Of a stretch of 55,360 bases of DNA, positions 20,129 to 36,744 are shown piece after piece. Each line of letters begins with the position of its first letter. Position 1 is the stretch's first letter. Position numbers and translations under genes: made by a program. The stretch comes from Polyangiaceae bacterium (GTDB taxonomy: Bacteria; Myxococcota_A; Polyangia; Polyangiales; Polyangiaceae). Location of the stretch: positions 1 to 55,360 of the forward strand of contig JAICQO010000039.1 of assembly GCA_025937835.1 (NCBI GenBank), given 5' to 3'. The notes under the pieces were generated by a model. The model worked only from the letters and a program-made list of their open reading frames with translations. It did no database searches and was not told the origin of the DNA.

Positions 20129-20905
20129 ATGAGTACGGCCATGAACGTACTCGTAGACAAGGTCGCGATCATCACGGGCGCGAGCTCCGGCATCGGCCGG
20201 GCCAGCGCCTTACTCTTTGCGAAGGAAGGAGCCGCCGTCGTGCTCGGCGCGCGGCGGCGCGAGCCGCTCGAAGCCGTCGCGCGTGAGATCACCGACGCGG
20301 GCGGACGCGCGCTCGCGGTGAGCGGCGACGTGACCGATGAGCACTATGCCGAGCGCCTGGTACAGGCGTCGATCGAGCACTTCGGCGGGCTGGATCTGGC
20401 ACTCAACAACGCAGGCACGCTGGGGCCAATGGGCGAGACACCCGCCGTGTCGGCGGCAGACTGGGACGAGGCGCTGCGGGTCAACCTCTCGAGCGCCTTC
20501 TTTGCGGCGAAGTACCAGCTGCCCGCTATGCTCCGCCGCGGCGCAGGCTCGCTGATCTTCACCGGCACGTTCGTCGGTCACACCGCCGCCTTCTCCGGCA
20601 TGGCCAGCTACGCCGCGAGCAAGGCCGGCCTGATCGGCCTCACTCAGGCGCTGGCGGTGGAGTTCGGCGCCCGCGGGATCCGTGTCAACGCGCTCTTGCC
20701 GGGAGGCACCGACACCCCCATGGGAGCCGCGGTCGCCAACACGCCGGAGGCCCTCGCGTACGTGCGGGGTCTGCATGCGCTGAAGCGCATCGCCTCGCCG
20801 GACGAGATTGCGAGGTCCGCGCTGTACCTGGCTTCGGACGCCGCGAGCTTCACCACCGGCACCGCGCTGCTCGTGGACGGAGGGGTCTCGATCGCCCGGG
20901 CCTAG
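20129..20905 (+). CDS. SDR-family oxidoreductase
   Basis: 258 residues from ATG 20129; a second ATG at 20141 removes four residues. Classical SDR: TGASSGIGRAS near the N-terminus, D-V after strand four, NNAGTLG, and catalytic YAASK about 100 residues later, with G-I-R-V-N-A-L-L-P-G-G downstream. The C-terminal S-F-T-T-G-T-A-L-L-V-D-G-G is typical of FabG-like enzymes. The substrate is unknown. It follows the PstS-like gene by 61 bp on the same strand and may be read from the same mRNA or its own promoter. The end overlaps the convergent luxR-type gene by 4 bp. Confidence 0.88.
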   Translation: MSTAMNVLVDKVAIITGASSGIGRASALLFAKEGAAVVLGARRREPLEAVAREITDAGGRALAVSGDVTDEHYAERLVQASIEHFGGLDLALNNAGTLGPMGETPAVSAADWDEALRVNLSSAFFAAKYQLPAMLRRGAGSLIFTGTFVGHTAAFSGMASYAASKAGLIGLTQALAVEFGARGIRVNALLPGGTDTPMGAAVANTPEALAYVRGLHALKRIASPDEIARSALYLASDAASFTTGTALLVDGGVSIARA

Positions 20906-21567
20906 CGCGCGGCGCCCCGGCTATGGACCAATAGCCGGCTCAACAGCTCCGTCTGGCTGCGCACGTTCAGCTTCTTGAAGATCGACTTCAGGTGGTTTCG
21001 GACCGTGTTCGGCGAGATCCCGAGCTGTTGGGCCAGCTCGTAGATAGGCAGCCCCCCGGTCAACCCCTCGACCACCTCGACCTCGCGTTGAGTGAGCTGT
21101 CGAAACTGCTCGGCGCCGAGCGCCATGGCCGTGGCTGTGCCGCGGACCGCGCTTTTGGGAGCGGCTCTCGGCAGAAATGCGCTCTCGGACACGACCCGCA
21201 GCCCCGGGACGTTTTCCAACAGCTTGAGCGGGAGCACCGTTTCGATCAGCAGCGGCTCGGGAGAGTCTTCGTGTTGACCGCTTAAGCCGCGCGCGAGGCG
21301 GGGGAACGCGCAGACCGGCTCGGGCTCACCCGAAGCCGTGGCCAGCACCGTCAAGTATGCGGAGTCGTCGCCGAGCAGGCACGCTTTCAGTCGAGGTCGG
21401 AGCTCGTCCTGAGCGTCGGGGTGCACGATCTCCCACACCGAGCGCCCGAGCAGGCTGTTCGGCGTCTCGTAGCGGAGGAGCTTCGCGAAGAAAGCGTTGG
21501 CGAACACCAGTCGAGCGTCACGTTGCGCAACCACCCCGACGCCGAGGTGCTCGATCAGTTCGTACAT
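20902..21567 (-). CDS. PAS domain LuxR-family transcriptional regulator
   Basis: 221 residues. The N-terminal PAS-like domain (~1-110) shows A-N-A-F-F-A-K-L-L-R-Y and G-R-S-V-W-E-I-V-H-P-D. The C-terminal LuxR/GerE helix-turn-helix (~155-215) shows L-T-Q-R-E-V-E-V-V-E-G-L, I-Y-E-L-A-Q-Q-L-G-I-S-P-N-T-V-R-N-H-L and I-F-K-K-L-N-V-R-S-Q-T-E-L. It probably senses a small ligand or redox state through PAS and binds DNA as a dimer. Twin dyads GCAC-N4-GTGC lie 64-95 bp upstream of the start and are candidate autoregulatory operators. The gene is monocistronic as far as seen and converges on the SDR gene. Confidence 0.88.
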   Translation of the reverse strand: MYELIEHLGVGVVAQRDARLVFANAFFAKLLRYETPNSLLGRSVWEIVHPDAQDELRPRLKACLLGDDSAYLTVLATASGEPEPVCAFPRLARGLSGQHEDSPEPLLIETVLPLKLLENVPGLRVVSESAFLPRAAPKSAVRGTATAMALGAEQFRQLTQREVEVVEGLTGGLPIYELAQQLGISPNTVRNHLKSIFKKLNVRSQTELLSRLLVHSRGAAR

Positions 21568-21630
21568 GGGCAGCCTTCGAGTCTAGGTCGCGCGAGGCGT
21601 CGCACCAAGGCCCGGCGCGGCGCGCGGCTG

Positions 21631-21662
21631 GCACGAAAGTGCTGCCGTTTGCACGATTGTGC
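21631..21662. promoter_or_regulatory. Twin GCAC-N4-GTGC dyads upstream of the PAS-LuxR gene
   Basis: Two perfect dyads, GCACGAAAGTGC at 21631-21642 and GCACGATTGTGC at 21651-21662, start exactly 20 bp apart, about two helical turns. They lie upstream of the PAS-LuxR start (21567, minus strand) and downstream of the lipoprotein gene ending at 21757. Shared half-sites and same-face spacing fit cooperative binding of two dimers, plausibly the LuxR-type protein itself. The binding protein is inference. Confidence 0.5.
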
Positions 21663-21756
21663 TCAGGCGGCGCGGGGTAGACGGCTGCCCGAGAACCTGG
21701 CGCGGCGCGTTCGACGGATGCGCGACGCGCCGGCCAGCTCTCGCCGCTCTCCGCGG

Positions 21757-22743
21757 TTAGAACGACTCGTCGTAGTAGGAAGCGTACGAGAAGTCGATGC
21801 AGGCGCCGCCGCCGTCGGGGCTCGCGTGCGGGCAATGCATGTCGGGATCGATCGCTGTCAGCAGCGTATGCAGCTGCCGGCAAGTCACGCTGTTGCTGTT
21901 CGCGCGATCCCAGGTGCCGTACGGGATCGACTCTAGGAACGCCACGCAGTTCTGGAACGGCACGCCCGTCAGCGGAAACCCGGGCGAGAAATCGTCGGCG
22001 GAGTCGAAGTAGCTGGTGCAGGTGCCCTCGTTCACGACGGCGCCGGTGGTGGGCTCGACGTGCGCGACGGTCAGCGCCGTGCAGAGCTGGTTGATCGCTG
22101 CCGCGTGCACGGCCGGGTCGTTCGGCGGATCGGACGCCGCACCGAGGTTCAGGATGTTCAGATCCATCGAGATCACCCGGTTATAACGGTTGAAGGTGAA
22201 GAACCCGACCTGCGTGAGCGTCTGCGAGGTCGCGCTGTTCGGCACGTCGGGATCGCACACCTGATCGGGAGAGCGACAGAAGTGGATGTCGACCGCCACG
22301 GCGACCTTCTCGTCGCCCGCGATCACCGAGCGGAACTCGACCCGGTCTACGATCGAGCCCGGCGTCACCGCCAGCGCATAGAAATACTCGACGACCGCGC
22401 TGAAGTCGGGGAACTGCCCGACCGGTGTGACGCGGCCTTTGACCGAGCCTTCCTGGAAGATGTGGGCGACCGACTCCGCACCCGTGAGAATGGCGATCGG
22501 CGTCGGGTACACCAGGTTCTCGTAGATCTCGCGCACGCGGTCCTCGCGCAGCTTGAGCGCGCGCGCATCCTTGGTCGCGTAGGGCCTGCTCTCGGCCGAA
22601 GCAGGCGGCTTCGGCGGCGGGTGATGGTGGTGGTGGTTGCGCGTTGCCTCGACCTGCTGCCCTGCCGGCGAATCACTCGCCTCTGTGCCGCTGCAACTCG
22701 CGGAAAGTGCGCACACGAATAGTAGAACCCCGCGTCGTCCCAT
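21757..22743 (-). CDS. Lipoprotein with polyhistidine run, unknown function
   Basis: 328 residues from ATG 22743, chosen for the AAGGAGG just upstream and because it begins a lipoprotein signal peptide (V-L-L-F-V-C-A-L-S-A-S-C, lipobox Cys ~17). A short linker carries five consecutive His followed by prolines. The rest (~60-328) has an NTF2/SnoaL-like feel in its first half (V-A-V-A-V-D-I-H-F-C, V-G-F-F-T-F-N-R-Y-N-R-V) and several Cys in the second half, consistent with disulfides in the periplasm. I do not recognise a named family. It is the last gene of a four-gene minus operon, 28 bp after the TPR/PEGA protein. Confidence 0.75.
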   Translation of the reverse strand: MGRRGVLLFVCALSASCSGTEASDSPAGQQVEATRNHHHHHPPPKPPASAESRPYATKDARALKLREDRVREIYENLVYPTPIAILTGAESVAHIFQEGSVKGRVTPVGQFPDFSAVVEYFYALAVTPGSIVDRVEFRSVIAGDEKVAVAVDIHFCRSPDQVCDPDVPNSATSQTLTQVGFFTFNRYNRVISMDLNILNLGAASDPPNDPAVHAAAINQLCTALTVAHVEPTTGAVVNEGTCTSYFDSADDFSPGFPLTGVPFQNCVAFLESIPYGTWDRANSNSVTCRQLHTLLTAIDPDMHCPHASPDGGGACIDFSYASYYDESF

Positions 22744-22771
22744 CTGGAACCTCCTTGATTGTCTCGTCGGA

Positions 22772-33822: not shown

Positions 33823-36744
33823 TTGAAAGACTTGGCGAAGTTTTCCGTCCTTCGGTTGGAAGCGCTCGTTCTGACGCTGCTCGCGCTGTTCGTCGCCGGC
33901 TGCACCGATAAGGAAGGGCGGCGCGGAAGTTGGAGCGGTGCGGGAGATCTCCCGGTCAACGTCCCCAACGCCGATCCTTGCGCGGCGCCGAACACCGGCT
34001 GCTCGTGCGAGCAAGTCGGCGAAAAAGTTCCCTGCGGTCGCGTCGAGGTTCGGTCAGGGGACTACGTGTCGTGCTCGATGGGCAAGCGCGAGTGTCAGTA
34101 CGACGGCGTCTGGGGCGAGTGCGTCGGGGAACACGTCACGACTCAGTACAACCCTCAATCATCGAAGCGCACACAAGCCATCACCGGCCCCACGCCGTGC
34201 GTCGATAATGAGTGCGATCCTTACTGCAACGTCACGACCGACGACGGCCAGGCGCCGACCGATCTGCCGGACGGGGTCTGCGCAGCGCCGAACGGCGGCA
34301 TCGTGGTGTGCGGCGTTCAGTGCGGTTATTCCGGACCGCACGCCGCTGGCTACGGTTCGCTGCCGGCGATGTGGAAGAAGCAACCGGCGAGCTGCACCGC
34401 CGCAGCCGACGCTTGCGGGTACGACGCCGATTGCTCCTCGGGCGTGTGCGCCGATTGGACGTTCCCTTGCTACGACCCGAGCCCTCCGGGCTGCGGGCTG
34501 GCGAAGAAGATCGACCTCGAGCTCGGCCCCCCGTGCGCGGCGGCCGGCAATGTCTATCACTTTCAGGTGTGTAACCGCGGTGCTCATCGAGCCGACAGCG
34601 GCACGATCAAGATCGGCGTCTACGACAGCAGCACGAAGCTCGGAACGGCCGTGACGGGCATGAACCCGGGCGCGCCCACGAGCGGCGTCGTGCGCTTCAC
34701 GCTCGGGACTACCGCGGGCAGCTACATCGACCCCGGCAAGTGCCTCGACATCAACCCCTCCAACAGCACGGCGACCCCGAATCCGCTGGTCGGGCTCACG
34801 GGTACGCGCGCGATCGCCGTCAACTACGACGCCTCGCTCCCCGAGTGCAACTACGCCAACAACTGGCACGTCTACCATTCGAGCCTGGCTTGCACCGGCT
34901 GCACGGGCCTCGAGTGCAACCAGATCTGCCCCTCGGCGAACCTGACGGGGACCATTTACGATCCGGCCGGCACCAACGTGCTGCCCGGCGTGGTCGTCTA
35001 CGTACCGAACGGCACGGTCTCGGCGCTGACGGACGGCGTGCAATGCGACACCTGCGCGAGCCTCTACAGCGGCAGGCCCATCGCCTCGGCGGTGACGGAC
35101 GCCGACGGCAAATTCACGCTCGCGAACGTGCCGGTCGGCGTGAGCTTCCCGCTCGTGATCCAGACCGGGCGTTGGCGGCGGCAGGTGACGGTCAACGCGA
35201 TCAGCGGGACGTGCGGCAGCGGGACGCCGCACGCCACTTTGCCCGGCGGTGAGACCTCGCGTCTGCCGAGCAAGAAGTCGGAGGGCGACATCCCCAAGAT
35301 GGCGATCTCGATGAGTGCGGGCGATCACCTCGAGTGCCTGCTGCGCAAGATCGGCATCGAGGACAGCGAGTTCACCGCTCCGACCGGGACTGGCCGCGTG
35401 CACCTCTACGCTTACAACGGGCTGACCTTTGCCGGCACCAAGTGCACGGCGCCCACTGGCGGGACGTGCGCCAACGATCTCTGGTCCTCGCCCACGCAGC
35501 TCGACAAGTACGCGGCCGTGATCGCGCCGTGCGACAAGAACCCGTTCGGTGGCGACCCGAGCGCCTACAACCCGTACGTCTGCAATCCGGTTTCAGCGAG
35601 CTGCCCCGGAGCGGGCTACGGCGCCGGCCCCTTCAACCTCCCGGGCGGAAGGAACCAATACGGGTTCACCTCGGCAGCCAACGCCGTGAACGGCACGAAC
35701 CCGCCGAATACGGCGTACCCGCCGTTTCCGACCACGCCGGACCTCGACAACCCCAACGGGCCCAAGCCCCCGAGCGTGACCGAGCAGAACAACATCAGGA
35801 ACTACGTCAACAAGGGCGGGCGGTTGTTCTCGACCCACTGGATGGCGTACTTCATGACCGCCAACACGTATCCGAGCGCCGTGAACTACGTCTTCGGCTC
35901 GCACGTGGATCTCGATCGGCAGCCGCCGAATTTCCCGTACACCATCGATCAGAGCAGCGACATCGGACAGAGCCTCGCCGATTGGCTCGGTTCGTCTACG
36001 GTGACCTTCACCAACTGGCGCCACCTGGCTCAGTCCGTGAACTCGCCGGCGGTGCGGCTCGCTTACGGCAACTCGACGCAGTCGCCGATCAATCACCCGG
36101 CGAACAGCTCGAGCGGTGCGGGCGGTCCGATGGTGAGCGCCTATCAGTTCGACGCGCCGTGGGGCGTTGCATCCGAAAACCAGTGCGGCCGCGTCGTGGT
36201 AGCGGAGAGCCACGTGTCGAAGCTGTCCGGGGGCTCGGCGACCACCAACCAGCAGACCGCGTTCCCGGGGACCTGCGATACGAGCGCCATGACGGGTGAG
36301 GAGAAATCCTTCGAGTTCTTGCTGTTCAGCGCCACGCAGTGCGTCGGTCTCGTCACGCCGCCTGCTCCGGCGACGCCGCTCGCGCCGGCCACCTACACCA
36401 TCGACTACCAGGCGAACTGCCCGACGGGCACCAAGCCCGAGTGGCAATTCTTTTCGTGGAAGGCCACCGTGCCCACGAACACCTCGATCGTCTTCGAAGC
36501 CGCGACCGCGACCAGCAAGTCCGGTCTCGGCACGGCAGTTCAAGTCGGCGTGGGCACGGCCACGAGCAACACCTCGATCTGGAAGAGCGATCCGAACACC
36601 GTCGAGTACCACCTGCGCAACGCTTCCCCGGCGCAGGCCTCGCGGGACTGGCTGCGGATTTCCGTGACCCTCAACCCGACCGGCACCACCACGCCGACGC
36701 TCACGCAGTGGCAGCAGACGTTCGACTGCAAGCCGGCCGAATGA
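33823..36744 (+). CDS. Large secreted/lipid-anchored protein with carboxypeptidase-regulatory-like domain
   Basis: About 973 residues if started at TTG 33823, which has GCAGGAA upstream and leads directly into the lipoprotein signal L-T-L-L-A-L-F-V-A-G-C. The longer frame from 33718 runs up to the divergent transporter start and is less likely. After a Cys-rich N-terminal region (many C-x2-10-C pairs to ~residue 200) comes a CARDB/adhesion-like beta region. A carboxypeptidase-regulatory-like domain follows (G-T-I-Y-D-P-A-G-T, A-V-T-D-A-D-G-K-F-T-L-A-N-V-P-V-G), then a long Asn/Pro/Thr-rich part and a C-terminal beta-sandwich. This protein type recurs in myxobacterial genomes; its role is unknown. 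No transmembrane helix beyond the signal is seen. Confidence 0.8.
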   Translation: MKDLAKFSVLRLEALVLTLLALFVAGCTDKEGRRGSWSGAGDLPVNVPNADPCAAPNTGCSCEQVGEKVPCGRVEVRSGDYVSCSMGKRECQYDGVWGECVGEHVTTQYNPQSSKRTQAITGPTPCVDNECDPYCNVTTDDGQAPTDLPDGVCAAPNGGIVVCGVQCGYSGPHAAGYGSLPAMWKKQPASCTAAADACGYDADCSSGVCADWTFPCYDPSPPGCGLAKKIDLELGPPCAAAGNVYHFQVCNRGAHRADSGTIKIGVYDSSTKLGTAVTGMNPGAPTSGVVRFTLGTTAGSYIDPGKCLDINPSNSTATPNPLVGLTGTRAIAVNYDASLPECNYANNWHVYHSSLACTGCTGLECNQICPSANLTGTIYDPAGTNVLPGVVVYVPNGTVSALTDGVQCDTCASLYSGRPIASAVTDADGKFTLANVPVGVSFPLVIQTGRWRRQVTVNAISGTCGSGTPHATLPGGETSRLPSKKSEGDIPKMAISMSAGDHLECLLRKIGIEDSEFTAPTGTGRVHLYAYNGLTFAGTKCTAPTGGTCANDLWSSPTQLDKYAAVIAPCDKNPFGGDPSAYNPYVCNPVSASCPGAGYGAGPFNLPGGRNQYGFTSAANAVNGTNPPNTAYPPFPTTPDLDNPNGPKPPSVTEQNNIRNYVNKGGRLFSTHWMAYFMTANTYPSAVNYVFGSHVDLDRQPPNFPYTIDQSSDIGQSLADWLGSSTVTFTNWRHLAQSVNSPAVRLAYGNSTQSPINHPANSSSGAGGPMVSAYQFDAPWGVASENQCGRVVVAESHVSKLSGGSATTNQQTAFPGTCDTSAMTGEEKSFEFLLFSATQCVGLVTPPAPATPLAPATYTIDYQANCPTGTKPEWQFFSWKATVPTNTSIVFEAATATSKSGLGTAVQVGVGTATSNTSIWKSDPNTVEYHLRNASPAQASRDWLRISVTLNPTGTTTPTLTQWQQTFDCKPAE

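Follow-up and report, generated by a model that had tools for sequence, protein, structure and literature searches.

A stretch of 55,360 nucleotides from a Polyangiaceae genome (hereafter the window) carries two closely spaced copies of the inverted repeat GCAC-N4-GTGC just before a gene encoding a PAS-LuxR regulator. The question raised by this locus is whether the pair serves as an operator or arose by chance and, if it is an operator, which protein binds it. Our results suggest that the pair may be a regulatory element, a reading that draws on little besides its plausible regulatory place, with an operator and a product of chance being about equally likely and chance at least as likely.

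Two dyads upstream of a PAS-LuxR gene

The first-pass annotation had described twin GCAC-N4-GTGC dyads spaced by 20 bp, and this description was confirmed letter by letter. Dyad 1, GCACGAAAGTGC, is located at positions 21631-21642 (centre 21636.5) and dyad 2, GCACGATTGTGC, at positions 21651-21662 (centre 21656.5), neither being assigned to a strand. The two dyads have the letters GCACGA..GTGC in common, and their start-to-start distance of 20 bp corresponds to approximately two helical turns. Both are contained in a 20-nt direct repeat whose two copies (21624-21663, likewise without strand) are identical at 15 of 20 positions. The pair sits in a gap of 189 bp (21568-21756), outside any coding-like reading frame, and 64-95 bp upstream of the ATG of the regulator gene. 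The gap presents a GC content of 74%, and the centres of the dyads are A/T-rich.

The regulator gene (20902-21567, minus strand) encodes a protein of 221 aa with a PAS domain and a LuxR-type (GerE) HTH. Matches to PF08448 (residues 12-85), PF13188 (residues 4-55) and PF00196 (residues 157-209) were all above cut-off, and the protein presents the N-terminal PAS and C-terminal GerE HTH that characterize proteins of the PimM kind. Its structure model, built from a single sequence, was poor (mean pLDDT of 44.6), with values above 70 in the HTH only. The upstream neighbour is a co-directional reading frame of 334 aa (21757-22761, minus strand) with no Pfam or NCBIfam match, and a short-chain dehydrogenase gene converges with the PAS-LuxR gene.

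Frequency of the dyads and the case for chance

The single dyad is common. GCAC-N4-GTGC was found 236 times in the genome of 6.92 Mb, relative to 141 times for the pattern read backwards, and five times in the window, where shuffled sequences contained 1.86 copies on average and 5 of 100 shuffles reached five. The W-centred 12-mer GCACGAWWGTGC was identified three times genome-wide (control: one), and the twin pair constitutes two of these three occurrences. The first-pass annotation had proposed a genome search for the 12-mer and had considered that many random occurrences would speak against a function. The outcome was divided: the single dyad does have many occurrences (236), and the W-centred 12-mer, with three copies, does not.

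Twins with any N4 centres at a distance of 20 bp occur only once in the genome. Based on the 236 single dyads, 0.39 pairs are expected genome-wide at distances of 12-60 bp and 0.008 at exactly 20 bp, although both the spacing and the word behind this last value were picked post hoc. Among 183 genomes from the order, we found five pairs of the same type in four genomes (own genome included) against four pairs in three genomes for the reversed control, which indicates that there is no general excess of 20-bp pairs in the order. Of the three other genomes, one carries its pairs as a tandem array with a period of 20 bp (L040/L043), another within a short run of tandem repeats (L041) and the last inside a coding-like frame (L039). 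The L040/L043 array lies near a contig end and is composed of three tandem 20-bp units with GCACTTGCGTGC.

Twin dyads were also counted as a class, defined by half-sites of 4 bp, spacers of 0-12 and a location within 60 bp of each other. The window contains 49 such twins relative to a mean of 36 under a Markov model, and 2 of 20 simulations reached 49; for twins with a spacer of 4, four were found against 2.75 expected, a further 20-bp-spaced twin at 35683 being one of the four. The 20-bp period itself is shared by two further twins, one with GCCG half-sites at 35683-35714 (4-4-4) and one with CGCG half-sites at 21701-21729, in the same gap as the pair, and these two cases show that such pairs arise with ease in this DNA. 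Simulations of the gap were based on 3000 sequences of 189 bp, with a twin being scored when its spacer was 4 and 10 or more of its 12 positions agreed. Such a twin appeared in 79 of the 3000 sequences under a local order-1 model and in one under an order-2 model of the window; when helical spacing was also imposed, these numbers fell to 9 and 0, respectively. The twin dyads are somewhat unusual but not overwhelmingly so when the latitude in choosing such a feature is taken into account, and they constitute weak to moderate evidence of design.

We searched for a second target of the dyad elsewhere in the genome. There are 231 dyads outside the window, 82 of which were examined, including each of the 42 whose centre is W-W. 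These 82 revealed no second target: a total of 77 were located in coding-like frames, as were all three of the other dyads inside the window (3/3), and one of the remaining five was located in a frame matching a subunit of NADH dehydrogenase. In the window, the extended motif TNGCACGAWWGTGCT was found 10 times with up to three mismatches relative to 11.2 times in shuffles and is not in excess. GCAC-N4-GTGC does not look like the word of a regulon.

Searches with the PAS-LuxR protein yielded no close ortholog. A search of a collection of genome contigs gave five partial relatives. Among the matches listed for 59 genomes (own included), all relatives besides the gene itself were partial and most of them shared the HTH only. 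Across 377 genomes of the phylum (own included), with at most nine candidates scored in each, near-full-length alignments were found only in L062 and L065 (31-32% identity). The neighbouring genes were searched in eight genomes of the genus (own included), where the 334-aa frame had only short and weak matches and the best match of the dehydrogenase presented 43% identity. For the upstream scan, 53 loci were taken and seven of them were dropped for want of a tblastn match. The 46 relatives left are distant, most of them having the HTH alone or the PAS part alone in common with the protein, and several present a TVRNHLK-like recognition helix. The scan covered the 300 bp preceding the first possible start and the 60 bp following it, several loci offering less than 300 bp of upstream sequence; an exact dyad was present upstream of none of the 46 relatives and a dyad with one mismatch upstream of nine. 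For 11 of the scanned relatives, the upstream DNA was also searched for palindromes of 16 bp, and two of the 11 had one each. Phylogenetic footprinting failed because orthologs were wanting.

Together, these counts bear on the reading in which the pair has no function and represents either two unrelated dyads with arms of 4 bp or the decayed remnant of a tandem duplication of 20 bp, within a gap of high GC content. We regard this as close to an even bet. It is supported by the number of twins in the window and the two other twins with a 20-bp period, by the simulated gaps, up to 79 of 3000 of which held a twin as good when spacing is set aside, by the near-identical order-wide counts of pairs and reversed control, and by the short tandem repeats or coding-like frame in which pairs elsewhere are embedded. 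The absence of the exact dyad from all 46 relatives and of a visible regulon among the 82 dyads points in the same direction. The expectation of only 0.008 exact pairs in the genome argues against chance, as do the non-coding location of the dyads, their place upstream of a putative promoter and their A/T-rich centres.

A putative promoter and a candidate two-site operator

A putative promoter, TTGGTG-N17-TAGACT (21608-21580, minus strand), is located 12 nt before the ATG of the PAS-LuxR gene. Its candidate -35 box, TTGGTG (21603-21608, minus strand), was recognized by eye in the sequence and is separated by a spacer of 17 nt from TAGACT (21580-21585, minus strand), which would be the -10 box of a short-leader promoter. 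A scan for the sigma-70 consensus found no site in 21500-21800, and the assignment of the -10 box is instead based on a genome-wide signal. The word CTAGACT, whose copy at this gene lies at 21580-21586 (minus strand), is rare in the genome, with 49 occurrences relative to 945 for the reversed word. Of these 49 places, the first 30 listed were examined, the PAS-LuxR gene included. A coding-like ATG follows CTAGACT by 4-18 nt at 9 of the 29 other places, relative to 1814 of 56276 random positions (3.2%) in the same loci. When 72 sequences of this genome were pooled, many of them fetched by CTAGACT itself, the corresponding numbers were 11 of 33 for CTAGACT (this gene included) and 277 of 7484 for permuted 7-mers (Fisher, 2e-8). 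These results suggest that CTAGACT is likely a -10 element of genes whose leaders are short or absent in this lineage. Three observations count against this reading: when TANNNT was profiled ahead of 230 start codons, in sequence that was not fetched by CTAGACT, only a weak hint emerged at 7-13 nt; TTG-N20-TAGACT is not enriched genome-wide (two occurrences relative to five for the reversed control); and GAAGG at 21578-21574, which may be a ribosome-binding site, would precede the presumed start of the transcript. The tendency of CTAGACT to precede start codons genome-wide is a more useful by-product of this analysis and can help to locate promoters in this GC-rich lineage.

Assuming a transcription start at 21573, the dyads are centred at approximately -63.5 and -83.5. 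Activators that contact RNA polymerase from the upstream side are known to bind at such positions, and a blocking repressor is expected nearer to the start. The place of the dyads is therefore activator-like rather than repressor-like. We propose that the pair is a candidate two-site upstream operator that acts locally on the PAS-LuxR gene's own promoter, a reading to which we assign a probability of roughly 0.4. A dimeric regulator would occupy both dyads, recognizing GCAC half-sites around an A/T-rich centre, with the two sites facing almost the same side of the helix and possibly cooperating, at about 63.5 and 83.5 bp before a start site located just ahead of the ATG. The most likely outcome would be the activation of transcription through upstream contacts, since the -35 and -10 boxes would be left free. 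The likeliest single binder would be the adjacent PAS-LuxR protein, which would then activate its own gene, and another regulator is about as likely. Within this model, the sequence, its location and the genome-wide behaviour of CTAGACT are observed, and the promoter and start site of the gene, binding, cooperation and activation are inferred.

This two-site operator is favoured by the presence of a single, non-coding pair in the genome while 77 of the 82 other dyads are coding-like, by A/T-rich centres within a gap of 74% GC, by a place just upstream of a putative promoter whose -10-like word has genome-wide support, and by the 16-bp WW-centred shape that it shares, letters aside, with the operator of PAS-LuxR regulators. 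It is weakened by the frequency of twin dyads as a class and the order-wide count of five against four, by arms of only 4 bp, by the failure to find a close ortholog, by the missing exact dyad in the 46 relatives and the lack of a second target among the 82 dyads examined, and by TNGCACGAWWGTGCT and TTG-N20-TAGACT, neither of which exceeds its control.

The operator of the PAS-LuxR regulators PimM and PteF of Streptomyces is reported to be CTVGGGAWWTCCCBAG (PMC9774167, PMC6448028). PimM and PteF resemble the protein studied here in combining a PAS domain with a C-terminal LuxR-type HTH. Their reported operator is also a short WW-centred dyad located upstream of or at the promoter, and the dyads described here can be written as 16 bp; however, its half-site is GGGA rather than GCAC, and it lies in the -35 region whereas the present dyads lie upstream of the putative -35 box. 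Allowing up to three mismatches, CTVGGGAWWTCCCBAG had no match between 13837 and 30411, and its seven matches in the window were scattered (3.2 expected by chance; 4 of 100 shuffles reached seven). The first-pass annotation had taken the location of the dyads as a sign of autoregulation. Their location upstream of the LuxR-type gene and of the putative -35 box agrees with a regulatory place, but the tie to the adjacent protein found no support, given that none of the 46 relatives has the exact dyad, that 77 of 82 dyads fall in coding-like frames and that the PAS-LuxR operator is unmatched here. Autoregulation by the PAS-LuxR protein is possible. An extension that we consider unlikely is that the protein is a stand-alone regulator from a new PAS-LuxR subgroup, with no close kin among the 376 further genomes sampled in the phylum, and that it would activate itself through two cooperating, WW-centred GCAC sites unlike the PimM operator.

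The HTH also resembles those in the solved structures of VpsT (3kln), DesR (4ldz), NarL (1je8) and the light-activated EL222 (8a5r), by sequence only and over residues 117-213 approximately at most. These matches stop short of the PAS part of the 221-aa protein. The heptamer geometry of NarL corresponds to the 7-2-7 form. Literature searches returned nothing for the spellings of the N4 dyad consensus that were tried, nor for the NarL heptamer geometry. If real, the two-site operator would add one more autoregulated LuxR-type gene, an ordinary case, with an operator word that has no literature match under the spellings tried.

Improbable alternatives: a direct-repeat binder, RNA hairpins and sigma-54

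It is also conceivable, but very improbable, that another regulator binds the direct repeat ACWWTCGTGC, whose minus-strand copies are 20 bp apart and which might represent the operator of a DeoR-family protein. A looser search of 108 genomes of the family yielded six near-matches outside the genome itself, each with three mismatches, relative to one for the reversed control. Three of the six (L195, L196 and L197) come from two other genera, where they coincide with the beginning of a DeoR-family gene that has a divergent MFS neighbour. They resemble the present locus in that TCGTGC units stand approximately 20 bp apart where a regulator gene begins. They differ in that their DeoR-family regulator has no relative in this genome at E <= 1e-8. 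The query of this search was the regulator of L196, and the search covered its relatives at or better than this threshold; none was found in this genome or in its seven genus mates, whereas the regulator was found in five of five genomes searched of the two other genera. In addition, the match of L195 may fall inside a reading frame. The DeoR reading was mostly dropped because a regulator of the L196 type was not found in the genome at E <= 1e-8. L195, L196 and L197 themselves present several TCGTGC or GCACGAAAGTTC-like units, which may be bound as an operator by their own DeoR-family regulator.

A slimmer chance still is given to a pair of RNA hairpins that would end or attenuate transcription from an upstream co-directional gene. 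Each dyad could form a hairpin of 4 bp, and on the plus strand a 66-nt stretch (21615-21680) folds better than 200 of 200 shuffles (z of -2.74). However, both neighbours are read from the minus strand, where z reached no more than -1.35 over 66 nt and -1.55 over 149 nt, the nearest plus-strand gene upstream of the dyads ends at 20905, and the dyads lie under no coding-like frame of the plus strand. Terminators and known RNA families were both dropped, since 21500-21800 contains no terminator-like site (stem followed by a T run) and the window has no Rfam match. Finally, a sigma-54 promoter on the plus strand was dropped as the least likely reading: TGGCACG...GTGCT resembles the -24/-12 consensus, but its GG and GC are one base closer together than in that consensus, and the plus-strand frame that spans and follows it does not look coding.

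Exact copies of the 12-mers are present in three papers. In two of these, both on Streptomyces (PMC9262613, PMC4743123), the second dyad, on one strand or the other, is contained in primers, in one case for the ermE* promoter, and this is probably a coincidence.
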